Positions 9,933 to 38,200 of a stretch of 40,233 nt of DNA are shown here, piece by piece. Position 1 is the stretch's first letter. Every line of letters starts with the position of its first letter. Source of the stretch: a virus; IMG/VR virus record IMGVR_UViG_3300025086_000080, positions 1 through 40,233 of that record. One strand, given 5' to 3'. The translations under genes were made by a program, and so were the position numbers. The notes under the pieces were generated by a model that searched no databases, was not told the DNA's origin, and worked only from the letters and a program-made list of their open reading frames with translations.

Positions 9933-10514
9933 ATGAGACCAATAAAAGATTATTTTTTTGTTAAGGTAGAAAAGAGAACCGAAGACACTACTAATGTTGG
10001 TGACACAGAATTAGTAATAGATACCAGTTTTGATCCATTAGTGTTAGCTAGGCAGTATGGGGTTGTGGTAGAAACGCCAGGGGTATTAACATGCGGAATA
10101 GACCTTGATATAAAAAAGGGAGATATTGTTTATTGTCATCACTTTTTAACACAGGATGAAAATGAGGTTAAGTTTTATGAAGAAGACCTTGTTTATAAGA
10201 TTTTTTGGAGTGACGTTTATTGTAGGGTTAGAAATGGTAAATTAAAGATGTTGCATTACTGGAACTTTGTGGAGCAGAAAATGGAAGATGAAGATGATTT
10301 TAAAACAAAATCAGGTATACTAATTAAGCCTGAAATGGAAGAAATCCAACTTCATGGGTACGTAAGACATTTAAATAAAGAGTTAAAGGAGTTAGGGGTA
10401 AAGAAGGGAGATGAGGTTGTTTTTTCAGAAAATTCAGAGTATGATATGGATATTATGGGAAAAAAATTGATGAGGATGAGAAATTTTGATATATTAGCTA
10501 AAATAGAAAAATAG
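9933..10514 (+). CDS. Co-chaperonin with two tandem GroES-like domains (193 aa)
   Basis: There are two GroES-type beta-barrel patterns in tandem. Domain 1 (about residues 1-100) has PIKDYFFVKVEKR, a loop ending in LVI (27-29), GVVVETPG and IKKGDIVYCHHF. Domain 2 (about 105-193) has FKTKSGILIKP (ILI at 129-131), VKKGDEVVFSENSEYDMDIMGKK and FDILAKIEK. In GroES the mobile-loop tripeptide IVL contacts GroEL; LVI and ILI occupy the matching positions. Phage co-chaperonins such as T4 gp31 replace GroES during capsid protein folding, and this gene stands just upstream of packaging and capsid genes. A two-domain layout is also known in plastid Cpn20. Chaperonin binding is inferred. Confidence 0.75.
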   Translation: MRPIKDYFFVKVEKRTEDTTNVGDTELVIDTSFDPLVLARQYGVVVETPGVLTCGIDLDIKKGDIVYCHHFLTQDENEVKFYEEDLVYKIFWSDVYCRVRNGKLKMLHYWNFVEQKMEDEDDFKTKSGILIKPEMEEIQLHGYVRHLNKELKELGVKKGDEVVFSENSEYDMDIMGKKLMRMRNFDILAKIEK

Positions 10515-11092: not shown

Positions 11093-13120
11093 ATGGAAGG
11101 AAAAATAAGAGTAAATGGATTAGAATTTAAGCTCCCTCCTAAGCCCAAGAAAAAAGATATACTTTTTTCAGATCTAAAAAAGAAAGATCAAAAGTGGACG
11201 AGGACAGAGCTTCCAGATACCCTTTCAGAAGAAACAGCAGCCAGTCATTCAAAATTTATAAACAAAGAGTTCGACAGAAGAAAGAATGGTGTTTGGTTTA
11301 TGAATAATGGAAAACCTACATATATAACGGGCGAACATTACTATTATTTAAACTGGTGCAAACTAGATATAGGTTACCCTGAATATAGAGATAGGGATAG
11401 AAGGTTCTTTATTTTTTGGGAAATATGTAAAAATGATCCAGAGTGCTTTGGAATGGTTATGGTAAAGCATCGTAGAGAAGGGGCTTCTTATAAGGGTGCC
11501 GCTATGCTATTACATGAAATAACATCTAGATATAATTCACATGGTGGTATTATAAGTAAAACAGGTGTAGATGCTAAATCATTATTTACTGATAAGTTGG
11601 TTTATATGTTTAGGCATTTACCTTTTTTCTTTCAACCTATTATAGATGGTAGTGATAATCCTAAAAGTACATTAAGCTTTAATGCTCCAGGACAGAAAAT
11701 TTCTAAAAATTTTAAGAAGATTGTAAAGTCAGAGGCTTTAAATAGTAAGATAGACTGGAGGAATACAAAAGACAACTCTTATGACTCAGTGAAGTTAATT
11801 AGATATTTATGTGATGAGGGTGGTAAATGGGTGGACGCTAATGTAGAAAAGAATTGGCAAGTTGTTAGATCCTGCTTAACACTAGGCGATAGAATTATAG
11901 GAAAATGTTTTATGCCAACTACAGTTAATGAAATGGCTGACTCAGGTGGTGAAAGATTTAAAAACATATGGGACGATAGTAGTATAGAAGAAAGAGATGG
12001 AAATGGCAGGACTAGATCTGGTATGTATAGTTATTTCACTCCAGCTTACGATGGGTATGAAGGATTTATAGATGAGTACGGTATGTCTGTTATTAGTAAT
12101 CCTACAAAAGAACAGGCTAAGTTTATAGGAAAAAATATAGGATCAAAAGAATATCTTCAAAACGTAAGAGAGGGGTATAAAAAAAATACAACAAAACTTT
12201 CTGAAGAAAAAAGACAAAGACCTTTTACTGTTGAAGAGGCTTTTAGAAGTGATTCAAGACATAGTCCTTTTGATGTAGAAAGAATCTATCAACAAATGGA
12301 TTATAATGAAGAGTCGGAAGGATTAATAGTAAAGGGTGATTTTATATGGAAAGATGGAATGAAGGACACTAAAGTTGTTTGGAGACCAGGATCTACAGGT
12401 AGATGGAGAATATCTTGGTTGCCTCCAGAAGATAGAAGAAATAGTATAAAAATGAAAGGCGTTAAAAAATGCCCAGGAAATGAAATAGAAATGGTAGCTG
12501 GATGTGACCCTTATGATCATGATACAACAACTGACGGAAGGAGATCAGACGCTGCTTGTTATGTGTATAAAAAATTCACAATGATGGATGATTTTTCTAA
12601 TGTGTTTGTTTGTGAATATATAGCTAGGCCACCTAAGGCAGAAATGTTTTATGAAGATGTTCTTAAAACTTGTGTTTTTTATGGTTGCCCTATATTAGTA
12701 GAGAATAATAAAATAGGTATTATAAAGTATTTTGAAAGAAGAGGTTATTATGAGTATTTAATGGATAGACCAGAATCAACTCATACAGACAGTAGCAGAA
12801 AGCAAAGAACAAAAGGAATACCATCAACAGGTGTTGCTGTATTAAATGCACAAACGGAAGCTATTGCTTCTTATGTGTATGATTATATAGGCATACTTGA
12901 TATAGAAACAATGGAAATGGGTAAATGTTATTTTAATAGACTACTAGATGATTGGAGTCGATTTGAACCAGATAATAGAACAAAGTATGATGCTTCAGTA
13001 GCATCTAGCTTAGCTTTACTTGGTGCTCAAAAACATGTTACAAAAAAGAAAGTTAAAAAAATAAGTATTAACTTTATAAAAAAATATAATAATTCAGGAT
13101 TAATATCTAAGAGAGTATAG
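11093..13120 (+). CDS. terL: Terminase large subunit, packaging ATPase-nuclease (675 aa)
   Basis: The N-terminal ATPase half has a divergent Walker A, KHRREGASYK (residues 125-134), in which the usual GKT/S is GAS. Walker B is LIRYLCDE (235-242) and a coupling motif is PTTVNE (275-280). The nuclease half shows acidic residues in the expected order: Asp472 in AGCDPYD, Glu537 in ILVENNK and Asp633 in KYDAS. The length is normal for TerL. The motor translocates DNA through the portal and cuts it. The portal gene begins with no gap after its stop (TAGATG). The divergent Walker A resembles that of TerL in crAss-like and related Bacteroidota phages. Confidence 0.9.
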   Translation: MEGKIRVNGLEFKLPPKPKKKDILFSDLKKKDQKWTRTELPDTLSEETAASHSKFINKEFDRRKNGVWFMNNGKPTYITGEHYYYLNWCKLDIGYPEYRDRDRRFFIFWEICKNDPECFGMVMVKHRREGASYKGAAMLLHEITSRYNSHGGIISKTGVDAKSLFTDKLVYMFRHLPFFFQPIIDGSDNPKSTLSFNAPGQKISKNFKKIVKSEALNSKIDWRNTKDNSYDSVKLIRYLCDEGGKWVDANVEKNWQVVRSCLTLGDRIIGKCFMPTTVNEMADSGGERFKNIWDDSSIEERDGNGRTRSGMYSYFTPAYDGYEGFIDEYGMSVISNPTKEQAKFIGKNIGSKEYLQNVREGYKKNTTKLSEEKRQRPFTVEEAFRSDSRHSPFDVERIYQQMDYNEESEGLIVKGDFIWKDGMKDTKVVWRPGSTGRWRISWLPPEDRRNSIKMKGVKKCPGNEIEMVAGCDPYDHDTTTDGRRSDAACYVYKKFTMMDDFSNVFVCEYIARPPKAEMFYEDVLKTCVFYGCPILVENNKIGIIKYFERRGYYEYLMDRPESTHTDSSRKQRTKGIPSTGVAVLNAQTEAIASYVYDYIGILDIETMEMGKCYFNRLLDDWSRFEPDNRTKYDASVASSLALLGAQKHVTKKKVKKISINFIKKYNNSGLISKRV

Positions 13121-15532
13121 ATGAAAACACAATTTGAAACTATAGGAGGGTACCCTACTATCTTTGTTAGTAACGAAGATAAAGCTAAAAATGAATACGG
13201 TCTTCAGTATTTTAAAAAAATGTATCACGACTGGAAAAATAACAGTCAAATGAACTACCAAGACAGAAAAAGAAGATTTGAAAAAATGAGATCTTATGCC
13301 GAGGGAACACAAAGTGTTGGTAAGTATAAAGATTTATTAGACGTTCAAGGGGATAGTTCTTATATGAATATAGATTGGACCCCTGTCTCTATTATACCTA
13401 AATTTGTTGATGTTGTTTGTGGGAGTATTATCAACCAAGAGCATAGTGTAAAAGCAAACGCTATAGACCCTATATCAATAGATGTTAGAAGAAAAGATAC
13501 TAAAAAAATGGTAGCTGATATGTTATTGGGCCCAATTAGATCTATAATGACTCAAAAAACAGGAAGAGCTTATGATAAGCCTGGTTTTGTAGCCAAAGAT
13601 TATGATGAAATAAAGATATTTATGTCTTTAAATTACAAACAAGCTCAAGAAATAGCTATAGAGAATGGAATTACTTTTGTTTTACAACAAAATGATTTTG
13701 AAGAAATGAGAAGAAAGTTAATAAGAGATATGGTTGTTATTGGAACAGCTTCTATAAAAACTTATATAGACCCTTCTTATGGAGTGAAGATAAGATATGT
13801 TGATCCATCAAACTTAATAACATCTCACACAAATTATCCTGATTACAAAAATATACAGCACGCTGGTGAAGTTTACACTATATCTATAGCTGAATTAAAA
13901 CAAATGGCTGGTGATCAGTTTACCGAAGAACAATATAAAGATATAGCAGAAAATTATGCAAAGAAAACAGAAGATACTGATTATATGAATAATGGTAGGT
14001 TTTCTGGAATAGGGGATTATAACCATGAGTACGATAAGTTTTCTATAGAAATAATGGATGCTGAGTTTATATCTACTTATGACATGAAGTATGAGAAGAA
14101 ACAAAATAGTTATGGCGGATACGCTGTAAACAAAAGGGGTTATAATTATAAGACTCCAAAAAAATCTAAAAATAAAAGAGAAGTAATACAAAATTCTGTT
14201 AAGGTAGTTTATAGTGGTAAGTATATTGTGGGAACAGATTTTATATTTGATTATGGTCTTGCTAAGAACATGTCTAGAAAAAAATCAAAACTATCTGAGG
14301 TTTCTTTATCTTATATGGTTTACACCCCAAACATTCATAAAATGCAGAATGTTTCCTTAGTTCAAAGAATGATTCCATTTGGCGATCAGATACAATTAGC
14401 TCATTTAAAAATGCAACAAGTAATGGCTAAAGCTAGACCAAAGGGGGCTGCTTTTGAGGTAGGGTCTTTAGAGAATGTTTCCAAAGGTGATGGCGGAACA
14501 TTTACCCCACTTGAGCTTCAAGAGATATTTGATCAAACAGGTAATATATACTACAGAAGAATGGATGATGAAGGGGCGGCTTCAAACGCTGTTCCTATAC
14601 AAGAGTTAGAAAATGGCATAGGTAGGGATATGATGCAGTTGATTCAAATATATCAACACAATCTACAAATGGTTAGGGATGTAACGGGTGTTAATGAGGC
14701 TAGAGACGGGACAAAGCCATCTAGTGAAGCTTTGGTTGGTGTTCAAAAAATGCAACTACTAGCTTCTAACAATGCCACTAGAAGTATTAACGATGGGTTT
14801 TTAAAAATATTTAAGAATTTATCTGAGTCTATATGCTTAAAGTTACAAGACATAGTAGAGTATGATAAAGCTATTGATGGTTATATATCAGCCATAGGTA
14901 GTTCTACTATAGAGACTATAAAAGTAAATAAAGATGTGTCCGCTAGAGATTTTGGTATATTTATTGAAATAGCTCCTGATGAAGAGGAGAAAGCTAGGTT
15001 AGAGCAGAACATTCAGGTATCTATAGCACAGAAAGAGCTTCGTATAGAGGATGCCATAATGATTAGAGATATAAAAAATGTTAAACTAGCCAATCAATTA
15101 CTTATACTTAGAAGAAAGAAATATCAAGAAGAGCAAATTGGCATGCAAAAAGCTGCTTCACAGGCAAACGCTCAACAACAGCAACAATCTGTAATGGCCG
15201 CTACACAAGCAAAGCAACAAGAGTTACAAATGGAGGCTCAAATAGACATGCAGAAAATGCAGGCAGAGGCACAGATACAAAGTCAAAAAATGCAGTTAGA
15301 GTTTCAGTTAAAGAATCAATTTGAAGAAGCTTCTCATAAAAGAAGAATGAATGAAATTCATTTAACAAATCAAGCTAAGGTTGCTGCTGGCAAAATACAA
15401 GGTGATTCTAGAAAAGATACTATAGAAAAAAGTGCTCATTTTCAATCAAGAATGATAGAGCAAAGAAAAGGTAATCAACCTCCTATAGAGAATCCTGATC
15501 AAGAGTTTGGTGCTTTGCCAGAAATGGAATAA
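13121..15532 (+). CDS. Portal protein (803 aa)
   Basis: Size, position after terL and core pattern fit a large podovirus-type portal. Residues about 420-450 (QIQLAHLKMQQVMAKARPKGAAFEV) and 520-555 (VTGVNEARDGTKPSSEALVGVQ) match the crown and stem region I know from crAss-like and Bacteroidota phage portals. The C-terminal quarter (about 645-790) is a Gln/Met-rich coiled coil, like the barrel extension of P22-type portals. The portal forms the dodecameric DNA entry and exit ring and binds TerL. No transmembrane or enzyme motif is seen. It is translated directly after terL. Confidence 0.85.
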   Translation: MKTQFETIGGYPTIFVSNEDKAKNEYGLQYFKKMYHDWKNNSQMNYQDRKRRFEKMRSYAEGTQSVGKYKDLLDVQGDSSYMNIDWTPVSIIPKFVDVVCGSIINQEHSVKANAIDPISIDVRRKDTKKMVADMLLGPIRSIMTQKTGRAYDKPGFVAKDYDEIKIFMSLNYKQAQEIAIENGITFVLQQNDFEEMRRKLIRDMVVIGTASIKTYIDPSYGVKIRYVDPSNLITSHTNYPDYKNIQHAGEVYTISIAELKQMAGDQFTEEQYKDIAENYAKKTEDTDYMNNGRFSGIGDYNHEYDKFSIEIMDAEFISTYDMKYEKKQNSYGGYAVNKRGYNYKTPKKSKNKREVIQNSVKVVYSGKYIVGTDFIFDYGLAKNMSRKKSKLSEVSLSYMVYTPNIHKMQNVSLVQRMIPFGDQIQLAHLKMQQVMAKARPKGAAFEVGSLENVSKGDGGTFTPLELQEIFDQTGNIYYRRMDDEGAASNAVPIQELENGIGRDMMQLIQIYQHNLQMVRDVTGVNEARDGTKPSSEALVGVQKMQLLASNNATRSINDGFLKIFKNLSESICLKLQDIVEYDKAIDGYISAIGSSTIETIKVNKDVSARDFGIFIEIAPDEEEKARLEQNIQVSIAQKELRIEDAIMIRDIKNVKLANQLLILRRKKYQEEQIGMQKAASQANAQQQQQSVMAATQAKQQELQMEAQIDMQKMQAEAQIQSQKMQLEFQLKNQFEEASHKRRMNEIHLTNQAKVAAGKIQGDSRKDTIEKSAHFQSRMIEQRKGNQPPIENPDQEFGALPEME

Positions 15533-16776: not shown

Positions 16777-18228
16777 ATGGCAACAGTAAATATACCTAGT
16801 GGTATGCTGATAAAGCCTTCAGCGGTTCAAGTTGCAACTAACGAGAACTATGTAAGTGCTTTAACGGCTACTTCGGGTCAATTTAGACAAAGAGATGTCT
16901 CTGAAAAACTTGTTAAGCGTTATGGTGAACAAGGTATTACAGGACTTCTTGAATTAATGGGGTCGAAAGCTCCATGTTCAAACACTTCATTTGAACACTA
17001 TGAGGAAACTTATAGACATCACAGTATAACTGCACAATTTTCATCTGCTTCAGCAAACAATGCTACTGAGGTAACTCTTACGCTTCAATCAAGCTCTTAT
17101 AATGAAAACTTTATAGGGGGTGACGATTATTCAGCAGTAAGACCAGGTGATATCTTAAGAGATAAAGATGGTGACATGTGGTACGTGATTAGTTCACAAA
17201 TGCCTAGTGCATCTACAAGAACTGTTAAAGTTCACTCTATAGATGGTGCTAACCAGGCAAAAACAGGTACAGGTGATGATTATGAGTTCGCAATCATTGG
17301 TAACGCTCACCCTGAAGGTGGGATACAGCCAGATGGTTTATCTCCATTAGTACATGAATACTCTAACAAGTGTATGATCTTAAAAGAATCTTTTGAGGTA
17401 ACAGGTTCTGAGGCTACAAACATTGTATATGTAAAAGTTGACAATGAAAAAATGGGCTCAGGGTATGTATGGTACTTAAAAGGTGAATCAGATACTTATA
17501 AGAGATTTATGGATTATTCTGAGATCATGATGATGCTAGGTGAGGATATCACTAACGCTACTTTAGAAGGTGTTAATACAACTTTTGAAAGTGGTACGGC
17601 ACAAAGTAACTCAGGTCTTAGAGGAACTCAAGGTTTACTTCCTTGGATAGAAACAGATGGACAGTCTATGGACTTAGGATCTGCTTCTATTACAATGGCA
17701 GACTTTGACGCTATAATCAAATCATTAGATAAATATAGAGGTGCTAAAGAATACGCTATGTATTCAGGTATCAATCTATCTTTAGATATTGATGATTTAT
17801 TAGCATCTCAAGGAGCTTATGCTGCTGGCGGTGCTAACTATGGTGCTTTCCAAAATAGTAAAGATATGGCGTTAAACTTAGGTTTCAACTCATTCACTAG
17901 AGGAGGTTACACATTCCATAAGAAAACTTATGATTTATTTAACCACCCTAGATTATTAGGAGCTACTGGATTCAACTACAACGGATACGGTGTTTGTATT
18001 CCTATGGATATGCAAAAAGACGCTAAGTCTGGTGATAGCATTCCATCGTTAAGAATACGATATAAAGCTGCTAATGGTTATTCTAGAGATATGGAGCACT
18101 GGTTAACTGGTTCTGCTGTTCTAGCAAACAAAACTAACACTAAAGATGTGCTACAATCGCACTACAGATGTGAAAGAGGTTTTGAAGGCTTTGCGGCTAA
18201 CAGATACATGTTAATCAAGAAATCTTAA
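16777..18228 (+). CDS. Major capsid protein (483 aa)
   Basis: Length and position after portal and scaffold match an HK97-fold capsid protein of the crAss-like/P22-like type. The N-terminal arm is followed by a region with LVKRYGEQGITGLLELMGSKAPC (about residues 46-68). Then come a beta-rich inserted domain (about 80-170), the segment YLKGESDTYKRFMDYSEIMMMLGED, and a C-terminal A-domain-like region (about 300-483) ending in RGFEGFAANRYMLIKKS. It has the even composition of an abundant virion protein. It is the likely client of the GroES-like protein. Confidence 0.8.
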   Translation: MATVNIPSGMLIKPSAVQVATNENYVSALTATSGQFRQRDVSEKLVKRYGEQGITGLLELMGSKAPCSNTSFEHYEETYRHHSITAQFSSASANNATEVTLTLQSSSYNENFIGGDDYSAVRPGDILRDKDGDMWYVISSQMPSASTRTVKVHSIDGANQAKTGTGDDYEFAIIGNAHPEGGIQPDGLSPLVHEYSNKCMILKESFEVTGSEATNIVYVKVDNEKMGSGYVWYLKGESDTYKRFMDYSEIMMMLGEDITNATLEGVNTTFESGTAQSNSGLRGTQGLLPWIETDGQSMDLGSASITMADFDAIIKSLDKYRGAKEYAMYSGINLSLDIDDLLASQGAYAAGGANYGAFQNSKDMALNLGFNSFTRGGYTFHKKTYDLFNHPRLLGATGFNYNGYGVCIPMDMQKDAKSGDSIPSLRIRYKAANGYSRDMEHWLTGSAVLANKTNTKDVLQSHYRCERGFEGFAANRYMLIKKS

Positions 18229-23491: not shown

Positions 23492-26400
23492 ATGCCTAGC
23501 CAACAATTAAAAAGAGTATTTATAGGTGGACTAGACAAGGACACTGATCCTAGACTATTGAAGAATGGTGATTATCACTATGCTTTAAATATAAGAAATA
23601 TATCTTCTGAGTCAAACACAGAAGGTGTTATAGAAAATATAAAAGGTAATAAAATAGTTTCGTATGAATTTCCCAATCTAGTTGGAAAGTGCACGCCTCA
23701 AAGAACTGTTCTTTTTATGCCCTCTAATAATTACATATCTAATTATTCTAACTGGCCAGAAGCTTATGATTACGTTATACAACAAAATCCTTCAGCGTAT
23801 TTTAATGGACAGCTTATAGATAACCCTATATCTACTTATGTTTCAGATACAGAGCAGGGTTATTATCCAGCAAATTTTAATATAGGACTTACAAGTTCTT
23901 TATCAAATGTAAACACTCCAGAAATACAGGCTCCTATAGAATATGAAGGGTCTACTGCTGAAAATCAATTACTTTACTTAACAGCTTTTGTAGAAACTTA
24001 TGGGCCAATGTTTTCGAATGCTGGGGTAACAGTTACTGTTATAAATAATAATTCTGAATACTGGAATGACGAAGACTGGTTTGAAAACACTAATCTTATA
24101 ACAAGTAATCCTAATTATACTCCTGGTCAAATTTATGCCTATGCTTTATTATTTGAAGGTACTTGTAGCACCTCTGCTGAACAGTTTCATATAAATATAT
24201 TAACTCAAGGAAGTCCTGATGTTAACATTGTAAATGGTCCGTATGGAGATAGTGATCAGTTATTAATACCTGAGAATGGTTTTGTTTCAATGGGATGGAA
24301 TGTGGTTGATGAGGCAAAAAAAAACTATATGGAAGGTGGCTTTACAGCCTTAACTAATTTAGGTCAACATCCAGAAATAACCCCTGTAAACTACACTTGT
24401 ATAGGGACTTATGAGGATACTAAAAATGATCATATATACTATATGGTGGCTAGTGATCCTGGAGCTGGGCTTCATCATATATTAAGATATAACTTACAAT
24501 CTAATAATATAACCACAATTTTTAGAGACAGTGGTAATCCAGGAACAAGTGTATTTAATTGGAGAAAGGAGTTTTTAATAAATGATATTGATAAAGTAGG
24601 AGATGTTCTTTACTGGACCTCAAGGCAATATGGGGAGCCAAATGCTCTTAATGTTATAAAGTCTAGATCTAGTATGGCTTTGATTGATGGTATAGTAGGG
24701 GATTATCAAGTAAACGAAGAGGGAGTTGTTACTGGTTATTCATTAAGTGATTATTATCCATATCAATTATATAGCCCAACTTATCCATCGGCAGATAAAA
24801 AACAATATGTAGAGCTAATTAAAAGACCTCCTCTTGATTATCCTGTATATACATATTCAACAGATCCAAATTTTAAAAAGAATAACCTACATGGTCACAT
24901 GTGGCAATTTAAATATAGGTATCATTTTTATGATAAAGAAGTAAGTGCATGGTCCCCTATTAGTGATATTGTTCCCTCTCAAGTTAGTATGAATAATATA
25001 CCTCAAGAAAACAATCAATCATCTGATAATAAAATAGAGGTAACTATAAAAAACTCATCTGGAATTGTTGAGTTTATTGAAATAGCTGTATTAAAATGTA
25101 AGGACCTTGGAAATTTTCCAAAAGGAAATAGAGGTGACTTTAAAAGTATGGCTAAAATAAAAAATGATTACGGTGCTTGGTTAACAAATGAAGATTCAAC
25201 ACAAACAGTTAATTTTTATAATGATAAAATGTACACTAATTTAGATAGCGTAGAGAGCACAAAGTTGTTTGATAACGTTCCTAGATCAGCTACAACACAA
25301 ACTGTTTTATCTAATAATAGATTAGCTTTTGGTAATTATACAGAAGGTTTTGACGTTCCTTTAACAAATACATCATTAACCCCTCAATATGGGTTTACAT
25401 CTAACCCAACAGCCCTAACAGGGCAAGAGGCTCAGTCTATTGTTTTATTTCCTTACTGGACTAATAATCAACAGTCCAGCACAAATGATTTAGCTTATAC
25501 GCTTGGTAGTATTTTAAACACAACTAACGCACCAACTTTAACTATAGATCCTAGTTTAAATCAAGGTGATGAAGATACTATAAATGCTTGGTGGGGATCT
25601 GATCCACTAGGTCTTGGTAACCCATTAGGTACTGATACTGATTCAGATGGTTTTGTGGACACTATAGCTAGTGATAGTACAGCTAATATAGCTTTTAATT
25701 CTCACAGTTTAAACACAGTAGGTCAATCAACTCAAGTTGTTATTAATGCTAGCGACCCATCATTAGTAGAGTCTTCCACGGACAACCCTCTTGGAAATGG
25801 TGTTTATACGGGATCTAATGCTGGCGGTGCAGAAGGTTTTCCTAGAGTTAAATTGTTATTTAATTTTGGTTTAGTTAATTGGGGAGATGGTGCTACAATT
25901 AATATAGATCTTAGTTGGAAGTTTAAAGTAAGAAGAGAGTTTAATCAATTAGGGACAGCTAAGTCTCAAGACTCTCAAGAGCACGTTTGTAGATTTAATT
26001 ATACAATACAAACACTACCTGGAGAGACAGATGTAGCTACACAAATGAGTCACGTTGCAGAGCAGTTAAGAGCTGCGATAAATCCTACTACATCAAATGA
26101 CATACCTTCATATAATGACGAGTCAGATATAGATGGGCTAGGTACAGATAAACCAGAACAAGCGAGTGATTATGATTTTTCTTGGCACAAAAGACCTATT
26201 GTAGATGGCAGTACGTTAATATTAGAATGGGTAGCACCAAAGAAGAACGTATTTCCTTCAGCACCTCCTAATTTAAATCTTTATGAATATAGAATGATTA
26301 GCTCTAATGGTGGTAACGTTCCTGGATATAGTTTTTTAATTAATAACATCAATGCTAATCAACCAGGTTCTAATAATAACTTTAAAAACACAGCACAACT

Positions 26401-29071
26401 TACTTATGGTACAACGCCTTATAATCAATATGGCGGTGGAATAAACTCTGTATCATCTTTTAAAAGTGGAGCCTTTCATAATTTTGGACTTGTTTATTAC
26501 GATGAAAAAGGCAGATGCTCTACAGTTCTTGTAGATGATGAATCAAAAACTTATGTTAAGTTTCCAACAGAAAGAACAAATGCGGATGTGGATATAGAGA
26601 ATGATCTTATAGATGAAAATAATATAGATATAAATGGACCTGTAAGTATAATGTGGAAAATAAATCATCAAGCTCCTGATTGGGCTAGTCATTATAGATG
26701 GTTTTATTCTAGAAATAATACTGTTGATGAATTTGTTCAGTTTAGATCATTAAAGGCTCATGTTAATCAAAGTGATGTTGTTGATGATGATCGTATATAT
26801 ATAAGTATGGCTGGCTTAAAGGGTAGAGATGATTCTTATATACCACTTGATGCTGTTAGTGAAGAAGGTATTCCTAACCCAGATGTTAATATATTTGACT
26901 ATAGGTTTAAAAAAGGGGATAGAGTTCGTTTTATAACAACGGGTAGTCAATCAGCTTTAAGCCCAGGTCAAGAACAAAATGAACTTATTTCGGATCAATA
27001 TATAGACGTTCACGTTTCAGGATTTAAATATTATAGTGCGTTTGATGAATCGGCACCAATACAAAACAATCAAGAGTTAAATGCTTTAAACTCTGATGGG
27101 TCAGAAGATGGGTATTTTTTAATTGTACGTGAAGTTAAAGATGCTCAAGGCAATCCAATACCTGGATACTCTAAGCAAGATGTTATAAATGGAACGGATA
27201 ACTTTAGACAATCTGTTATGGAAATATACAGAGCAAAAGAAGAGACAGGGCCTGAGGAAACATTATACTATGAGTTTGGAACAAAATATAAAATAGACCA
27301 AGCCTCTAGAAGACATAGAGCTCCTATTGCAGATCAGGGAGGCTCCTTTACAGAAGATGTTTTTGGTAACGTTACGTCAAACACTCCAGCAGTGGGTCAG
27401 TTTACAACAGGTGATATTTATTATAAATCTAGAATAATGCAACAGGTAACAGGAAATGATATTCCTTTTAATGTAGAGGATTATTATTTAAACGATTATC
27501 AAGAAACTAATCACTTTAGTATAGGTAGAGCGAATATATATTCTGTAAACTATAAAGAGGATAATAGAGAAGCTTCTATCACTTATTCAGATGTTTATCA
27601 ACCAGATACGGATTATAACGGATTAAACTCATTTAACTTATCTTTATTTAATTGGGAGGATTATGATAGAATAGATGGTGGTATACAAAAAATAGAATCT
27701 AGAGACACCGATCTTATAATGATTCAAGAAGACGAAACGTATAGAATACCTGTTGAGAAGGATGTTATTTTTAATGCTAAAGGTGAGGCTAATGTTGCTT
27801 TATCTAATAAAATACTTGGAACAAGAACTTTCTTTTTTAGTAAATATGGTATAAGTAAAAATCCAGAATCATTCGTAAAGAATGGAAATATTTTCTACTG
27901 GACTGATATAAAAAGAGGTGCTGTACTAAGATTATCTAGAGATGGTATTACGGTTATATCAGACCTTAAAATGTCAGATTACTTTAGGGATAGATCAAGT
28001 GATTATGATAAGTACGATCCACAATATAACTGGGACACAAATTACGGAACTATTACGGGTGCTATGTTAATGTCTGATAATAAACACTTTAGAATTAAGG
28101 GTGGTTGGAATCCTAAACACAATGAATACATTGTACAGTTTCCTGAGATAATGCAGAATCAAGATGAGTGGGAGTATTATGAAAGTGTTTTTGAAGGCTC
28201 TGATGAGGAGTGGGAGGATTATATAGCTGATCGCACAACAATAACAGAAGGTTCTGTAGTTTCTTTTGCTGAAAAACAAAAAAGATGGATGACGTTTTAT
28301 TCTCATGTTGCAGATTATTATGGTAAAATAAATAGAAAGTTTGTGTCATGGAAAGATGCAGGGCTTTATGTTCACGATGAGGATGAGGAAAACTATAACA
28401 CATTTTATGGGGATCTATATCAAACAATGTTAGATTTCTATTTTAACAAAGGCCCATCAACAGTAAAGGGGTATAAAACAATTACCTTAGAATCAACACA
28501 AAAAACGGATGTAGGTTTAACTACAGATCTATCTTCAACATCTATAAATCAAAACAATTTTGACGAAAGAGAAGGTAAGCTTTATGCACAAATACCTTTT
28601 GTAACGCAAAATGGGGTAGGTGGGGACATAATTGGCGTTGGTACAGGGAGCACTGTTGCGGACGAGGATGGCGTGCTTACATCTACTATAACTGGCTTAG
28701 GAACAAATTTTACTAATTCTAATCTTATAATAGGAACTTCGGATGACCCTACTTCAAATGAGTATGGAGATCAATTATTTTACTTTGATGAAGATACTCA
28801 ACAAAACGTTTTAGTTGGAACAATATCTACTATAATAAGTGACACAGAATTAACATTAGTAGCACCACCAACAACACTTGATGAGGATGGCAATATTATT
28901 GATTTAACTTTTGATGGGTTGTTTTTATTTGTTATTAGAAATGCTTTTGCAGAAGGAGATAGAATGAAGGGTAGGTATATGGAAACAAAACTTAGTAAGC
29001 TAACTAATCAACCTATGGAAATATTTAGTGTGGGATCTACTGTTTTTAACAGCGAACTTAGTGATGATTAA
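23492..29071 (+). CDS. Giant stabilization/muzzle-type tail protein (1859 aa)
   Basis: The opening FIGGLDKDTDPRLLKNGDYHYALN (about residues 10-33), then GVIENIKGNKIV, and later INDIDKVGDVLYWTS, WQFKYRYHFYDKEVSAWSPISD, FGLVYYDEKGRCSTVLVDD and FYWTDIKRGAVLRLSRDGITVISD, are the pattern of the P22 gp10-like stabilization protein that crAss-like phages use as tail muzzle. It closes the tail tip and releases DNA on contact. It seems enlarged relative to what I know of the family. Additions include a Ca-binding-like loop DTDSDGFVDT (near 711-720) and a C-terminal beta domain (about 1740-1810, with TGLGTNFTNSNLIIG). It ends the neck operon; the next gene has its own promoter. Confidence 0.75.
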   Translation: MPSQQLKRVFIGGLDKDTDPRLLKNGDYHYALNIRNISSESNTEGVIENIKGNKIVSYEFPNLVGKCTPQRTVLFMPSNNYISNYSNWPEAYDYVIQQNPSAYFNGQLIDNPISTYVSDTEQGYYPANFNIGLTSSLSNVNTPEIQAPIEYEGSTAENQLLYLTAFVETYGPMFSNAGVTVTVINNNSEYWNDEDWFENTNLITSNPNYTPGQIYAYALLFEGTCSTSAEQFHINILTQGSPDVNIVNGPYGDSDQLLIPENGFVSMGWNVVDEAKKNYMEGGFTALTNLGQHPEITPVNYTCIGTYEDTKNDHIYYMVASDPGAGLHHILRYNLQSNNITTIFRDSGNPGTSVFNWRKEFLINDIDKVGDVLYWTSRQYGEPNALNVIKSRSSMALIDGIVGDYQVNEEGVVTGYSLSDYYPYQLYSPTYPSADKKQYVELIKRPPLDYPVYTYSTDPNFKKNNLHGHMWQFKYRYHFYDKEVSAWSPISDIVPSQVSMNNIPQENNQSSDNKIEVTIKNSSGIVEFIEIAVLKCKDLGNFPKGNRGDFKSMAKIKNDYGAWLTNEDSTQTVNFYNDKMYTNLDSVESTKLFDNVPRSATTQTVLSNNRLAFGNYTEGFDVPLTNTSLTPQYGFTSNPTALTGQEAQSIVLFPYWTNNQQSSTNDLAYTLGSILNTTNAPTLTIDPSLNQGDEDTINAWWGSDPLGLGNPLGTDTDSDGFVDTIASDSTANIAFNSHSLNTVGQSTQVVINASDPSLVESSTDNPLGNGVYTGSNAGGAEGFPRVKLLFNFGLVNWGDGATINIDLSWKFKVRREFNQLGTAKSQDSQEHVCRFNYTIQTLPGETDVATQMSHVAEQLRAAINPTTSNDIPSYNDESDIDGLGTDKPEQASDYDFSWHKRPIVDGSTLILEWVAPKKNVFPSAPPNLNLYEYRMISSNGGNVPGYSFLINNINANQPGSNNNFKNTAQLTYGTTPYNQYGGGINSVSSFKSGAFHNFGLVYYDEKGRCSTVLVDDESKTYVKFPTERTNADVDIENDLIDENNIDINGPVSIMWKINHQAPDWASHYRWFYSRNNTVDEFVQFRSLKAHVNQSDVVDDDRIYISMAGLKGRDDSYIPLDAVSEEGIPNPDVNIFDYRFKKGDRVRFITTGSQSALSPGQEQNELISDQYIDVHVSGFKYYSAFDESAPIQNNQELNALNSDGSEDGYFLIVREVKDAQGNPIPGYSKQDVINGTDNFRQSVMEIYRAKEETGPEETLYYEFGTKYKIDQASRRHRAPIADQGGSFTEDVFGNVTSNTPAVGQFTTGDIYYKSRIMQQVTGNDIPFNVEDYYLNDYQETNHFSIGRANIYSVNYKEDNREASITYSDVYQPDTDYNGLNSFNLSLFNWEDYDRIDGGIQKIESRDTDLIMIQEDETYRIPVEKDVIFNAKGEANVALSNKILGTRTFFFSKYGISKNPESFVKNGNIFYWTDIKRGAVLRLSRDGITVISDLKMSDYFRDRSSDYDKYDPQYNWDTNYGTITGAMLMSDNKHFRIKGGWNPKHNEYIVQFPEIMQNQDEWEYYESVFEGSDEEWEDYIADRTTITEGSVVSFAEKQKRWMTFYSHVADYYGKINRKFVSWKDAGLYVHDEDEENYNTFYGDLYQTMLDFYFNKGPSTVKGYKTITLESTQKTDVGLTTDLSSTSINQNNFDEREGKLYAQIPFVTQNGVGGDIIGVGTGSTVADEDGVLTSTITGLGTNFTNSNLIIGTSDDPTSNEYGDQLFYFDEDTQQNVLVGTISTIISDTELTLVAPPTTLDEDGNIIDLTFDGLFLFVIRNAFAEGDRMKGRYMETKLSKLTNQPMEIFSVGSTVFNSELSDD

Positions 29072-30274: not shown

Positions 30275-32245
30275 ATGGGTGTATTAACTGGATCGCCAAA
30301 AGGGCCGATACAACTTCCTGATTATAACCAAAACTTTATAGCTGTAAAGCAGCTTAGGTTAAAAAGAAAAGAGCTTGAGCTAAAAGAAAGGCTTGCTGAG
30401 CAACAATTAAACAAAGGTAAGACTAAGGGGCCACCTTTAGCTAAGTTTAGTAAAACTGAAGCCAACTTCCAAGATAGATTTCATTCAGTACATGATGAGG
30501 CGATGGATCAATTAGATCAATTTGCTATAAATAACGCTGATAAACTAAATCCAAACAGTGATTTATATGATATAAAAACTGACAGGATTTTTCAAAACAT
30601 GCAGAAAAGTGTAACAAGAGCTGCTGATCATAGTAATAGTTGGGTTACAAACGGAACTGATTTTTTATCTTACATTAATGAAAAAGATGAATACGGAAAT
30701 AGAAAAGTAGATGTTTCTAGCTTAGAACAAAAACCTAAATACCTAAATATAAACACGGTTCAGACTAGCATGGATTTAAGAAATGAACCATTTATTTTTC
30801 AAAATAGCTTTTGGACAAATGACGAAACTGTACAGCAGCAATTATCTTTAAAAGAAGGTGGGGACCCTAATAATATAAATGATTATTTAGTTGATGAAAA
30901 TGGGTTCTTTTTAAGTAAAGGGGGAGGATTGGTAGTAGAACTTCAGTCAAATGGTCAAAACGCCCAGTCAGGATTGTTTACGATAGATGATGTTTTTAAT
31001 CAAGAAATTTCTGGAGACAGTATAAGGTTTGATAGTAACGGTAATTTAATGTATGGGGAAAAAATGTTTTTTGAGCATTTTGACACAGGGTTTTTTGATA
31101 AAAATAAATACCAAACATTAGATAAGCCTACAAACTTTATATACGAATTAGCTGGAAAAAAACTTAAGTTTAGTAATTTATTAAACCAAGTATCTGAAAA
31201 TAAATACGAAATTGATAATGAAGCTATTGGAAAAATAAGACAACAGGGTATAGATTTATTTTCTTGGAACGGTCAAACGTGGGGTAATGACTATGGAGAC
31301 GCTTTAGCTCTTCAGGTTGCTAGAAAATACGTTTCTGAAAAATATGGTATACAGGAAAGTGAAGTTGATCAGGCTCAAATAAATGCTGTTCTTCCTATGA
31401 TAAAGAACAATGAGATATTAGCTGAGGAGTTTAGGTCTGAAGATGGTGGATTTATAAAATCTGTATATGACCAAAAAGAAATTAAAACATTTAATGATTA
31501 TGCTGGAGAGTTAATTTTAGAAAGCTACGCTAATCAAAATAGATTTAGTAAAGAGAAATTTACATCAAACCGTGCAGAGATAAAGGAGCAATTAAAAATT
31601 AATGAATATAAATGGGAGTCATCTCAAATGATAGGAAATATTGCTCACGTATATCCTACTCACGATAATTTTACTCAAAAAACAGCCTTTACTACCTATG
31701 GATATACAGGGGTTCAAGAGAACATAACAGGATCGGATTATTTAACTTTTCAAAATAACACTAACTTTATTACTGTAGAGGATGTAGCTCAACAATATAT
31801 AGAACAAAAGGCTGGTACATTTGTAGGTGCACAGCACGCTATGATACCTATTGACTCTAGAACTGGAAAGATAATGGAGGGTACCTGGATTGATAATAAT
31901 AATCAATTTAAACCATTAACTGCTGAGGATGCTAAATATTGTGTTATTGTCCCAATGTTTAAAGGTCACTTTGAACCAGAAGATCCAGATGCTATAAAAA
32001 GAGCAATTTCAAATGATAATGCAGATGCTAAACCAAGTGAAATTGTTACAATAGACGGTGTTGAGACTTACGTACCTATGACTCAAATGAATACGATGTC
32101 ATCGAACCTAAAGCTTTATTCTAAGTTTATAGAAAAAGCTGAAGAAGTTAATAACAATGGGGTTGTGGGTAAATCTGATAGTCCGTCATACGCAGAGGGT
32201 GGTATTGTAAGTAAAAAAAATAACTGGAAACTTCCAGGATCATAA
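30275..32245 (+). CDS. Probable internal virion protein (656 aa)
   Basis: There is a helical, Lys/Glu-rich N-terminus (about residues 20-75, with KQLRLKRKELELKERLAEQQLN). A long middle has no recognised domain and is rich in aromatic and polar residues. A C-terminal YAEGGIVSKKNNWKLPGS has a Y-x-x-G-G motif at Tyr639, 18 residues before the end. The start follows the previous stop by four nucleotides. It probably belongs to the ejected or capsid-internal set, which is inference from order and from the shared motif. Confidence 0.5.
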   Translation: MGVLTGSPKGPIQLPDYNQNFIAVKQLRLKRKELELKERLAEQQLNKGKTKGPPLAKFSKTEANFQDRFHSVHDEAMDQLDQFAINNADKLNPNSDLYDIKTDRIFQNMQKSVTRAADHSNSWVTNGTDFLSYINEKDEYGNRKVDVSSLEQKPKYLNINTVQTSMDLRNEPFIFQNSFWTNDETVQQQLSLKEGGDPNNINDYLVDENGFFLSKGGGLVVELQSNGQNAQSGLFTIDDVFNQEISGDSIRFDSNGNLMYGEKMFFEHFDTGFFDKNKYQTLDKPTNFIYELAGKKLKFSNLLNQVSENKYEIDNEAIGKIRQQGIDLFSWNGQTWGNDYGDALALQVARKYVSEKYGIQESEVDQAQINAVLPMIKNNEILAEEFRSEDGGFIKSVYDQKEIKTFNDYAGELILESYANQNRFSKEKFTSNRAEIKEQLKINEYKWESSQMIGNIAHVYPTHDNFTQKTAFTTYGYTGVQENITGSDYLTFQNNTNFITVEDVAQQYIEQKAGTFVGAQHAMIPIDSRTGKIMEGTWIDNNNQFKPLTAEDAKYCVIVPMFKGHFEPEDPDAIKRAISNDNADAKPSEIVTIDGVETYVPMTQMNTMSSNLKLYSKFIEKAEEVNNNGVVGKSDSPSYAEGGIVSKKNNWKLPGS

Positions 32246-32261
32246 ATAAAATAATTAGAAA

Positions 32262-35200
32262 ATGGCAGTAATTTATCAAAAGGATAAGAACGCTATAAAG
32301 TTCATACAGGAATTTTACTCAAAATTGACAAAACATAAATTGTCACAATATGAGGTAGATAGTATATTAGCTCAATATGATGGAGATTATCATAGCATGG
32401 TTAAGGATTTGTATGACAAGCTTTCTGATCACAATTTATCCGAAGAGGAACTTGACTCAGTAGTTAATCACTACGGGTTAAAAAAAAAAGACTCGGCAGA
32501 TTCTACATCAGATTCGGAAGGTGGTACATCGGATTTATCCGAAACGAAAACAGATAAAAAAACCTTTAAAGCTGAAGAAGGTGCTGTTGTTCCAACCGAG
32601 GATCAAGACGTTTGGTTGTACAATGATTATATAGGTTATTACCAAAAAAATGGTAGAAACGTTCCGCATTCAGATGTTCCTGAAAACATAAAAACAAAAC
32701 TAAAAAACGAATACCTAGAAAAAACCAATCAAGAGAAAGTTAATATTAAAAATCAGAAAATAGATAATGCTATATCTTCTTTAGGAGAAATGGTTGAGAC
32801 TTCAGGTTTTGATGGAGATTACTCTAAAAGTTTTAAAATACCACAAACAAAAACAGGAATAGAAACTTTAACAGGTTTATTAACAGATCCATCAGCAAGA
32901 GAGAAATTAGGATATGGATATATGAGTGAGTCTGAAGTAAACGATTATTTGGTTAAATTAAATAATGCTGAGAATAATCTTGATATATGGAAACAAAATA
33001 TATCTGATGAGGATTATATAAATATACTTAAACAAGAAAATGAACAAAAAGGTAATAAAAACACACCTAGGTTAGATCAACAAAATATAAACGAAAAGTT
33101 AGAAAAAAAACAAAAATACGACAACGGAGAGGCTGTTAATCTATATGCGATGCCTTCTGCCACAGACCCTACTCTTTTTAACCCAAGACCTATAAATGAA
33201 GATAATGTTGAAGCACTTTGGACAGGTACAGAAAATCTTTATAAGGTGCCAAAACTTGATGATGAAACAACTAGAGAGGGATTATATGGAGCTGCAACAT
33301 ACAATACTCCAGGTTTACAACAGCTTCTTAATTTTAATAAACCTCCAGGTAGTAATGAATATCAGCACACAACAAAAAAAGGTCTTGATGCGTATAATTC
33401 TTTATTAAACTTAACCTATGAGGTTGATGATATTAATAAAGAAAAAGAATTAATACTAAAAGAAGGTGGCGTAAAAGACTGGAATAATTTACCAGATAAT
33501 TTAAAAAATGAATATCAATTATTACTTGATAGAGAAAAACTTATTGGTAACACGTCTGAGCGTTGGGATATGGACGCTGAATCAAATGCTCTATTAACTA
33601 TTTTTAACCAAGAGTTAAGTTTAAGTAAACAAAAAATAGCAGAGGGACAAACTGTTAGTCAAGATCCAATTTATAACGATAATGATGTGAATCAATTTTT
33701 GGTTTACAACTATGATGTTTTTTCAAATAAAAAAGTAGAAAACGCTAGATTTCCTCTTTCAAACCTTGATTTTAATGATGTAGATAAAGAGACGTTTCAA
33801 AGATTACAAATGGAGGCTCAAGAAAACGCATCTTATTTATATACCCCAGGATATATGTTATATGGAGATGAAAGTGCATTTACATCAAATCAAGCTGGTC
33901 TTATAGATTCTTTACAGTTAGGTAGTGATCAAAAATACACACCAAAAGAAGCTACTCCTTATGGCGACATATTATCTTTTAATACTACTTTTAGTCAAAA
34001 ATATGGATACGGTAAGATAGTAGACATGTCTAAGGAGATTAGAGAACTTTCTGCTGGACTATCTAATGAGGAGATATTTGCTAATCCTGAAATAGTAAGT
34101 AAAATAAACGACTATCATTACTTTAGTAAAAAAGTAATTTATGACAAAGTCACCGCTGAATATGGATTAGATTATGAGGGCGAAATGTCTGCTTTAGGTG
34201 GCAATAGGACAATGAGTATGTTTAGGTTAGGGGAGTCTTATCAAAGATTGTTAAATGAAGAAAAAAGTATTTCAGAACAATTAGAAAATCAGGATCTAGA
34301 TAATAAGGAAAGAAAAAAACTTGAAAACGATTTTATTAACGTAAGAAACAAAAAAACACAAAACAGATCTGTTTATAATAAAATTAAAGAAGAGGGTCTA
34401 CCTGGTTATGATGAGTTATTTAATTTAGTTTCAGGGGATTATGACGATGAGGTTAAAATGGATCCAGAAAGTAAACTGCAATTTGATAATAGCGTTCAGC
34501 AAATAATGACTAGCAGAGAAAAATATTTAGCTTTATACGATCAATATATTCAGAGTTATGGGCCTGAAGCTGCTCTTAATAAAATGGAGGATCAGATGTT
34601 TAAGATAAATGGTAGTATGATGCACATGAATTATATGCACGACAATACCTATATAACATTACCATCGGGATCAAAAATACTTGTAGGGGACATGATGAAT
34701 TATGTTTATACTAATTCAAGAACTCCTGTTAGGATGGGGACTAAGGGTACACGTGAATTGTACTATAAAGAAGTTGATGAAAACCCTTATTTAGCCTCTG
34801 ATCAAATAGGTCTACCTGATAATATGTATGGGACACCTGATCAAACTTATGAACAAGGACCTTCTATGGGAGCCTCCTCTAAACCAGGACCTCTTTATCA
34901 AGGACCTGTTATAAAGTTGGATATGGATGCTTACGGAAAGCTTAATCCAAAAACTAATTTTCTTGCAAGAAGTGTTGATTATTATTTTGGAGCTAAATAT
35001 GAAAAAGAAGATTTAAAGTTTATGTATGATCACGCAAAAAAGTTTGCTACTGACTATCAATATCACTGGGCTGAGTTGGTTACTATATCAGAAATGATAG
35101 CGTGGAATTATGACCCAACCCAAGGGTATACTGAAAGATCAGGAGGAAGTCTTTTTGTAGAGTCTATGGGAACAGAATTAGGAAGGGGCCTTAAAAATAT

Positions 35201-38200
35201 AAGTAGCAGTATAAGTGTTGCAACGGGGGGTATGGCTTATAAGCCAAATCAAGAATTATCAGAAATAGAGCAAAGAGATATGGTGCACAGTATTTTAGTG
35301 GGTGCTACTGGTGAGTCAACAGAAGATGCAAAAGCAGAATCTGAATTTGCTTGGTCTCAGACATTAGGGTCTGGAACGGGAATGGTGGGTGTAATAATAG
35401 CTGAGTTGTTATTTACTAGAAAATTTTCTGTATCCGCTATAAACAAACTTGATAAAGCTTCTGACGCATTTAAGTCTATAGAAAGATATAAAAAAATAAT
35501 TCAAAGCTCAAGGGTAGGTAAGGTTTCCTCAACCATACTTAATGACACTTTTGTTGGTGCCATGTCTTTTGAATTAACTTCTAATCCTGATGTTACTTGG
35601 AAAATGGGTGCGGCAGAAGGGTTTGTTCAATCAATTCTTAGTAATTTATTTTTTGGTAAAAGTAAATATGCTAAATTTTTATTAGGGGCATATAAAAAAG
35701 CTCCTAAATCAACAAATGCTGCTTACTGGACCACTAGAACTGCACTAGGGGGTACTTCTGAAATGTTAGCAGAATATGCTGGTGAATTTACACAGCAACT
35801 AAGCGATTTAAATGGAAATTGGAAAGAAGCTTGGATTGCTACATTTGGAGCTACTCAAGATGAGGCTCTTCAAAAATTTGCTGTTACAGCTATATTGTGT
35901 TATGGAGCGTCTGGTGCTTTTAATTTAAGGACAGCAAAGGGAATGGAGCTCGAGTTACAAAGATTTGTTGACTCGGGAGTAGGCCCTAACGGACAGCCTT
36001 TGTCACCAGAAGCTGTAGCACAAGGTCAAGATTATTTAGATGCTATTGATGAGCATAAAAAAGGACCAATGGGAGAGCAGATTGATATGTTTGAAAACAT
36101 GACTTGGGAAGACTCTTCTGAAGCAGCTTTATTTAAACTTGACCAAGAGGTAGATCCAGATTTTGCATCTCCTGAAACAAAAACTGTGGTAATTGATGGT
36201 GTTCCCACAACTACTTTAGTTGAGCCAGGATCTCCAATTTATTCTGTAGACGGCAATAGTTTAAGTAAAAAAGATATAATTAAGTTTATAAACGAAGGTG
36301 GATTAAGTAGAAAGGATATTGAGGTTGTTATTGAAAATGATAAAGAAGTATCTGATTTAGCTGAAAACATATTAAATAAAACAACAGAGACAGAGGAGTT
36401 AGGAGTAAAGCCTACAGGGCAAAACATAATTTCTACTAAAGGTTCTAATACTAATCTTACACAAAAAAAAGAAACTTGGGATTATAAAAATGACGAAGGT
36501 GAAGATAAACGTGTTAATATTAATTATAAAGGAGATGGAACTGTAGAGGTAAAAATGCAAGATAAAATAGATGGTAAGTGGGAGACTGTACAACAACTTC
36601 ATAAAATAAATAAAGATTTTCAAGAAAAACATGGAGAAAATTTTGTTCAAGAATGGATTAAATTAATGGATTATGTTGAAGGGACTCCTAAATTAACTGA
36701 ATCAATAACAGATGTTAATAAACTATACAGTCAAAAAATAATAGAAAAACATGGTCTTGTAAACACAACTCCTACTGAAACTGATGATGGTAAACAATTA
36801 GATCTTTTTGAGGGAGAATCAACAAGAAGTTCTGCTGGTAATTCAATAAATGTTCCTGCTGGCCAAAGGGTATTTAACGATCCTAATCCAGGAACAGCTC
36901 AATCAACAAAAGATTATATAGCTAAAAACGGAAGTAATTTAGGTATAGATTACTCGCCTCCACAAGTAGATAATAAAAGAAATGAAGAAAGATCTAAAAG
37001 AATAGCTGATGCGTATGATTCTATGGAAAATAATCCTGAGGATCCTAAAACAAAAAGTGCTTATGAGTCTTTATCTAAAGAGGTTCAAATGCAGTACAAT
37101 CAAATGATTAGCGATGGTGTTAATGTAGAGATATGGGAAGGGACGGGAGAACCTTATGCTAATAGTGACGAGATGATTAAAGATGTTAGAGATAACAATC
37201 ATCTATATATATACTCAACAATAGAGGGTTATGGCGAAACTGAAATTTCAGAAAAAGCTATGCAAGATAATCCTTTATTAAGACCAACTGAAAAGGTGGA
37301 TGTAAATGGAAAGCCATTACTTGTTAATGATTTATTTAGAGCTGTGCACGATTATTATGGTCATACAGAACTAGGAAATGGATTTGGTGTTATAGGAGAA
37401 GAGATGGCTTGGCAAAATCACTCTAGAATGTTTAGCCCTAATGCTAGAAGAGCCATGACTACAGAGACTAGAGGACAAAATTCTTGGGTTAACTTTAATA
37501 AAAACTTAAGAAACCCAGATGGAACAATACCTAAAAAGGGAGACAATAACTACGTTTCTCCTAAAGAAAGACCTTTTGCTGATCAAAAAATAGGATTACT
37601 TCCAGATGAATTTGTCTTTGTAGAAAGAAAAGGTGTGCAAAAAAACTCAGGCGATAGGGTGTTTAAGTTTGATTTAAATACAGCGACCTACAGAGGTGCT
37701 ATAAATGGAAGGGAGATAGAAATTAAAAAGAACCCTTGGAAGAAAGAATGGACTGAGGTTTCTACAGGTCAGGTAATAGGTAGAACTTTTGGGGAGGCTA
37801 TGGATAATTTAAGAAATGTTTTTAAAGGTGTTCAAGGTACTGTTTTTTCTTCAGACCCTAATTTAAATACAGAATCTTTTCAAAATGCTAAAATTTCTTT
37901 AGAAGCCTCAACAAGTGAAACTAATGCTATTCAGCCAGATGTTGTTGTGAAGCCATTTGTAGATAGCGAAAGTATTATTAATAAAATTAAAAAAAGAAAA
38001 TATACAAAGCCTCAACTAGAAGCTATTCAAAAAGCTTTAGTAAAAATACAAAAAGCTAAAGCTGATCCCACATCTATGCCACTGGAGATAGTGCTTGAAG
38101 ATGGAGGTATTGTTATAAACGATAAAAATCAAGTTGTTTTTAAAACTTACGGATACAATTTTAGTGACAGCCCTTTACTTGAGGGAATGAATGATCAGCA

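Follow-up and report, generated by a model that had tools for sequence, protein, structure and literature searches.

A tandem two-domain GroES-like protein encoded beside the packaging genes of a marine phage group

An open reading frame in a 40,233-base virus record (IMG/VR IMGVR_UViG_3300025086_000080, the whole of which is referred to here as the window) encodes a protein both halves of which are GroES (Cpn10) domains, arranged head to tail (Table 1). The protein is probably a phage co-chaperonin which, in the manner of T4 gp31, would serve as a GroEL lid in the folding of capsid or other virion proteins. Translation bore out the reading frame given in a preliminary description of this DNA, together with the two hydrophobic tripeptides noted there, LVI at residues 27-29 and ILI at residues 129-131 of the 193.

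Table 1. Features of the tandem gene and its neighbourhood (window coordinates)
Feature	Coordinates	Strand	Residues and basis
Two-domain GroES-like co-chaperonin	9933..10514	+	ATG start, 193 aa plus stop; ORF list
Domain 1, GroES-like barrel	9933..10232	+	Residues 1-100; hhalign, fold, HMM
Domain 1 mobile-loop position	9975..10058	+	Residues 15-42; LVI 27-29 = 10011-10019
KxGDxxxxHH motif, domain 1	10113..10142	+	Residues 61-70; conservation in 48 homologues
Two-residue linker	10233..10238	+	Residues 101-102; model secondary structure, strand 95-100 (domain 1) to strand 103-106 (domain 2)
Domain 2, GroES-like barrel	10239..10511	+	Residues 103-193; Pfam and fold match
Domain 2 mobile-loop position	10284..10355	+	Residues 118-141; ILI 129-131 = 10317-10325
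Terminase large subunit, conserved downstream neighbour	11093..13120	+	phrog_6681, E 1.5e-156
Portal protein	13121..15532	+	phrog_6547, E 3.3e-136
Major capsid protein candidate	16777..18228	+	PF17236 SU10_MCP, 32.5 bits against a cut-off of 24.1; phrog_13704

Fold and domain composition

The AF2 model of the whole protein (pLDDT 91.5, pTM 0.84) finds its best full-length match in the PDB in Cpn20 of Chlamydomonas (7ekq chain R; Foldseek E 2.7e-06, TM 0.59), with which it aligns end to end over 170 residues (Z 10.7); because the rmsd is 4.9 Å, the domain arrangement of Cpn20 is matched only loosely. The preliminary description had likened the protein to plastid Cpn20 as a tandem double GroES and had called for structure prediction of the monomer; the likeness stands, in that both halves have the GroES fold and model confidently as GroES barrels and Cpn20 is the best match at full length. 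Neighbouring GroES subunits pair in the ring through their first and last strands, which suggests that the two domains of the modelled chain would lie side by side rather than in two tiers.

Domain 2 is recognized directly. Pfam Cpn10 (PF00166) matches residues 119-191 with 41.6 bits against a cut-off of 21.1, and in structural alignment single GroES chains fall on roughly residues 99-193 of the model, with Z up to 9.7. Two of the nine phage records matched by the window protein as query, from Acinetobacter phage, are weak matches to the C half alone. The N half alone, searched against Pfam, found no family, and direct single-protein searches confined Cpn10 to the C half of the window protein, so that family profiles and a separate model of the N half were needed. 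The alignment of tandem homologues used for this purpose (A3, 48 rows) was assembled from two samples: 26 of 40 loci (A2; near copies and one partial sequence left out), four rows of which A3 omits as near copies, and a further 80 loci, 64 of which were used (16 lay in contigs already sampled) and gave 26 rows after one locus without an ATG start had been skipped and rows more than 90% identical removed. The Cpn10 profile with which it was compared was built from 13 single-domain sequences, namely E. coli GroES and 12 of 16 loci, the four omitted being three near copies and a fragment.

The N-half profile of these 48 homologues aligned with the Cpn10 profile in hhalign at 96.0% probability over 85 columns. 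The score of 52.0 was reached by none of 200 column shuffles (best 16.5), and the reversed-profile control scored 12.2. The N-half and C-half profiles also aligned with each other (87.3%, score 35.2; best shuffle 19.4). When 98 half-proteins were searched with an HMM made from the 13 single-domain sequences, the window N half matched at E 0.00019. In the same search, two homologues (L072 and L091) received identical pairs of scores although their sequences differ, the equality being a coincidence. In a relative that is 37% identical to the window protein (L077), both halves are reported as Cpn10 within one frame, and its N half alone scores 22.3 bits, above the Pfam cut-off of 21.1. Modelled alone, the window N half (pLDDT 93.2, pTM 0.84) retrieved from the PDB by Foldseek a list whose first 29 rows are all Cpn10/GroES as judged by title and length, with all E values up to 0.12 and one under 0.001; its best VIA match had Z 9.2 over 89 residues at 3.1 Å. 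The contrary outcome raised in the preliminary description, a GroES fold confined to the second half, was thus not borne out by the N-half profile, by the Pfam result for the relative, or by the N-half model.

Mobile loops, roof segments and selection

Both tripeptides had been placed by the preliminary description at the mobile-loop position. For ILI this is exact, the three residues being in register with I25-V26-L27 of GroES in the hhalign alignment, but in the profile alignment LVI falls two residues later than the GroES IVL position. Three strong hydrophobic residues occupy positions 27-29 in 42 of the 48 homologues, with no other start within residues 15-40 exceeding 4 of 48; a hydrophobic triad at 129-131 is found in 24 (next best start, 7), and both triads exceed chance in this alignment. 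In every one of the 48 homologues the loop of domain 1 has 28-29 residues, whereas that of domain 2 varies from 14 to 33 and is shortened in some relatives (L122 and L123). Mean column entropy is likewise lower in the domain-1 loop (residues 17-42, 1.93 bits) than in the domain-2 loop (residues 118-141, 2.56 bits); when columns were permuted between the loops, 1 of 10,000 permutations reached this difference, in a comparison that takes no account of relatedness and treats a gap as a letter, so that length change in the domain-2 loop adds to the difference. In the model the N loop is an ordered hairpin (strands 19-22 and 25-28). AF2 confidence was also tried as a means of telling a mobile from a fixed loop and was rejected: it is high in both loop regions and fails to discriminate.

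The roof-loop segments of the window domains comprise 19 and 16 residues (medians over the 48 homologues, 15 and 16) and are both shorter than that of E. coli GroES, which has 23. The corresponding segment of T4 gp31 has about 19 residues, measured from an anchor chosen by eye, the same as in domain 1 of the phage protein, and gp31 is described as lacking roof loops and having a slightly larger chamber (PMC6318259). A segment of 14 residues occurs in 3 of the 13 single-domain Cpn10 sequences, and a short roof is therefore no special mark of gp31-like function.

Domain 1 also carries a conserved motif in which G63, D64 and H69 are present in all 48 homologues, H70 in 47 and K61 in 46. E. coli GroES has no counterpart to the near-invariant HH pair that follows KxGD in the phage domain, a pair that might have a role involving metal or substrate.

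The open frame is kept in homologues of comparable two-domain length. In eight pairs of close relatives the whole-gene dN/dS is about 0.07-0.12, dS approaching or reaching saturation in some of them; since synonymous change among close relatives greatly exceeds amino-acid change, the tandem gene is, by this measure, under purifying selection. These data bear on a reading in which only domain 2 would be active, domain 1 being a decayed copy or a spacer. The N halves do score less well as Cpn10 (24 of 49 fall below E 0.01 with the 13-sequence HMM, against 43 of 49 C halves), and in some close pairs change has been faster in the N half than in the C half (dN 0.118 against 0.030 for L017-L007). 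N-half dN is nevertheless far below dS in all eight pairs, the five motif residues are near invariant, and the loop of domain 1 is the more conserved of the two and almost constant in length. A decayed or spacer domain is regarded as very improbable, chiefly because its loop is conserved.

Gene neighbourhood, distribution and partner chaperonins

The window protein matches PHROG 13932, 'co-chaperonin GroES', with E 5.3e-18 (residues 6-191 on profile positions 5-199 of 200), as do all 26 members of A2, including those of phi38:1 and Calle. At least 533 of 599 candidate stretches in the homologue search encode a relative. At least 77 of 50,697 phage records match the tandem protein of phi38:1 or of an elemo phage (68 Flavobacterium, 7 Cellulophaga, 1 Maribacter and 1 under unassigned phages), the tandem protein of Maribacter phage Panino being among them, and BFVD holds one more, from Cellulophaga phage phi18:3, beyond the 77. 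A search for carriers in genome contigs with a five-sequence alignment of one sub-clade yielded 67 stretches, none of which was confirmed. In databases the tandem proteins are labelled GroES, cpn10 or hypothetical. No description of a two-domain phage GroES was found among the literature matches listed, a search to which subscription journals were mostly external.

The position of the gene is strongly conserved. Among the best 80 of 240 terminase loci, from which near copies were not thinned, the tandem gene lies 222-577 nt upstream of the terminase gene (measured between open frames) in 70, two of which (L188 and L254) have only its end inside the contig. Eight of the other ten have too little upstream sequence, and two are without a tandem gene there: in L197 (contig G028) it is elsewhere in the contig, away from the terminase gene and on the opposite strand, and L200 is a 6.9-kb fragment without it. 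A 530-amino-acid open reading frame stands directly upstream of the terminase gene in L197, in the place of the tandem. The tandem gene is also upstream of the terminase gene in phi38:1, Calle_1 and elemoF_6-3D.

A relative of the window capsid protein was found in all 18 of the tandem-bearing records tested, from a set of 28, the window and a near copy of it included; in two of these (G010 and G017) the capsid match reads through one TAA stop. The major capsid protein is accordingly placed here as the presumed substrate of the co-chaperonin, on the strength of its position and co-occurrence. That the co-chaperonin is tuned for a large capsid protein, as the preliminary description had suggested, has circumstantial support: the gene adjoins the terminase-portal-capsid genes and co-occurs with the capsid family, but the capsid protein is not oversized. 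An argument from capsid size was considered and rejected, as the 483 residues of the window capsid protein (an estimated ~53 kDa) do not exceed T4 gp23 at ~56 kDa (PMC6318259).

Other structural genes were noted in passing. A 1,859-amino-acid virion protein (23492-29071) matches the crAssvirus muzzle C-terminal domain (PF25729, 34.5 bits against a cut-off of 27) and phrog_14478, which links the phage to crAss-like podoviruses, and the muzzle-type domain would make a Bacteroidota host likely. A giant open reading frame (32262-40233, at least 2,657 amino acids) continues past the right end of the window and has only a sub-threshold Pfam match, to DUF7178 (25.6 bits against a cut-off of 27). ElemoF_6-3D has an 11-kb structural gene.

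Some relatives encode the other components of a chaperonin system. In phi38:1 and Calle_1, both of the genus Callevirus, genes for GroEL and a single Cpn10 adjoin the DNA-replication genes and the tandem gene is beside that for terminase; elemoF_6-3D (Elemovirus) has GroEL, a single GroES and the tandem in one genome. With the phi38:1 tandem the window protein shares 27% identity, and as a query it fails to retrieve the elemo proteins directly. The elemo tandem has diverged so far that it escapes PF00166. Across 38 records, many of them fragments, GroEL occurs in 3 and a separate single-domain Cpn10 in 4; the tandem was seen in 37 of the 38 by sequence search or annotation, and the remaining record (G038) has a Cpn10 match in a 206-amino-acid frame. 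The window and its nearest contig (L002, 49.6 kb), either of which may be a fragment, gave no match for GroEL or for a single Cpn10, and the contigs searched from close relatives of the window phage, many of them likewise fragments, yielded no phage GroEL. A published survey of 78 environmental genomes from the phi38:1 group reports GroEL homologues in 36 (PMC5332604), and Panino is reported to encode GroEL and GroES homologues (PMC11590407). For North Sea flavophages a chaperonin cpn10 is given as a core protein of the Pervagoviridae, with no indication of which one is meant (PMC8776804).

In a Flavobacterium elemo phage (L268, positions 31199-31741 and 24233-26046), the domain-2 loop of the tandem protein, judged by eye, is reduced, and the phage has its own GroEL and an 83-amino-acid GroES. 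Loss of the domain-2 loop may go with possession of a separate single GroES, in a set of cases too few to establish the pattern.

A proposed GroEL lid and its relation to known systems

The proposal that best accommodates these observations is that the two domains would sit as ring neighbours in a lid capping a GroEL ring, and that this lid would, like T4 gp31, help virion proteins to fold, whether the major capsid protein or others. For the window phage the GroEL so capped would be the host's, given that neither the window nor the contigs searched from close relatives, many of them fragments, showed a phage GroEL; the related phages of Cellulophaga and Flavobacterium could use a GroEL of their own. 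There are limits to the proposal, in that likeness of fold does not show function, LVI is out of register, the N loop is modelled as an ordered hairpin, the C loop is shortened in some relatives, and 24 of the 48 homologues are without the triad at 129-131. The low count of GroEL, in 3 of the 38 records (many of them fragments), also weighs against it, as does the failure of PF00166 to reach the tandem of the elemo phage, which has its own GroEL and single GroES.

The architecture has precedents on two sides. The chloroplast and apicoplast Cpn20 proteins likewise have two head-to-tail GroES domains in one chain of about 190-200 amino acids, but the protein described here differs from them in being encoded by a phage and in having a two-residue linker and short roof segments. 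The family profile prefers bacterial GroES (35.0 bits) to Cpn20 (23.6 bits), both on the C half, which on profile scores argues for an independent origin; the architecture is Cpn20-like, with an origin probably separate from that of plastid Cpn20. Lying among terminase, portal and capsid genes of a phage, the gene is taken as Cpn20-like and not as a member of the Cpn20 family. T4 gp31 is also phage-encoded, has the GroES fold and is linked to capsid production, and the model matches it at Z 7.4 over 82 residues (1g31_A) and Z 8.3 over 70 (2cgt_O) with 7-9% identity. It is, however, a single-domain protein of 111 amino acids, known as a heptamer (PMC6318259), in contrast to the two domains per chain of the phage tandem. 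E. coli GroES, with which both phage domains share their fold, is also single-domain, at 97 amino acids.

The best structural match permits another interpretation, since 7ekq Cpn20 comes from a complex with chloroplast ClpP (PMC8889267): the GroES fold might have been reused as a cap or adaptor on some other ring, such as the ClpP protease or a phage assembly ring like the portal, and not act on GroEL. The nearness of terminase and portal genes would suit such a role, as would the shortened C loops of some relatives and the near-invariant HH pair absent from E. coli GroES. Against it are the hydrophobic triads in both loops of the window protein, with ILI exactly at the GroES position, and the presence of GroEL in the same genome in some relatives, so that an adaptor of this kind is judged improbable.

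If the protein is a GroEL lid, two-domain units would give an even number of domains, and either a mixed lid or an even ring would follow. The change of symmetry against the sevenfold GroEL ring that the preliminary description proposed is plausible on this reasoning. In an even ring one GroEL site would be left unpaired or one lid domain unused. Such a lid, a lone homo-oligomer of three or four copies with six or eight domains, is a serious possibility, if short of an even chance. Arabidopsis Cpn21 forms tetramers, concatamers of six or eight domains function with GroEL, and even-numbered Cpn20 oligomers and such concatamers work with sevenfold chaperonins (PMC5780408); the rarity of a separate single-domain Cpn10 among the 38 records points the same way. 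Bacterial hosts, however, would be expected to supply a single GroES, three isolates from two genera encode one themselves, and the lids native to plastids are considered most likely to be seven-domain mixtures (PMC5780408).

The alternative form of the GroEL lid, a mixed one, would combine three doubles with one single GroES, whether host or phage, on the sevenfold ring. The 7ekq structure contains one Cpn11 chain, two Cpn20 chains and a further chain of 205 residues (chain Q), and the source names a 'heterotetramer' of CPN11, CPN20 and CPN23 (PMC8889267); these chains would fit seven domains, the same number that three doubles and one single would give. It is tentatively suggested, as a specific version of the GroEL lid that is less likely than not, that the single would be the host's in the window phage and the phage's own in phi38:1, Calle and elemo, and that the resulting seven-domain lid would be asymmetric and poor in roof, with its two loop types dividing their roles and the chaperonin diverted to the capsid protein.

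The two-domain GroES proteins described in the literature searched are those of plastids and apicoplasts, and it is for these that the mismatch between an even lid and a sevenfold ring is discussed. The Cpn20 layout is here a near-constant gene, beside the packaging genes, of a broad marine phage group whose named hosts are flavobacteria. What would be new is the Cpn20-like architecture in a gp31-like phage setting; the proteins themselves were already in databases as GroES or cpn10, a plain label that the double-domain reading sharpens. Phages phi38:1, Calle_1 and elemoF_6-3D each hold GroEL and both single and double GroES in genomes of 60-73 kb, and because all three chaperonin genes are present in each isolate, lid stoichiometry, loop specialization and diversion of the chaperonin are testable in existing phage-host pairs. 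Should the mixed lid prove true, it would be a parallel in bacterial viruses, probably an independent one, of the chloroplast Cpn10/Cpn20 lid.
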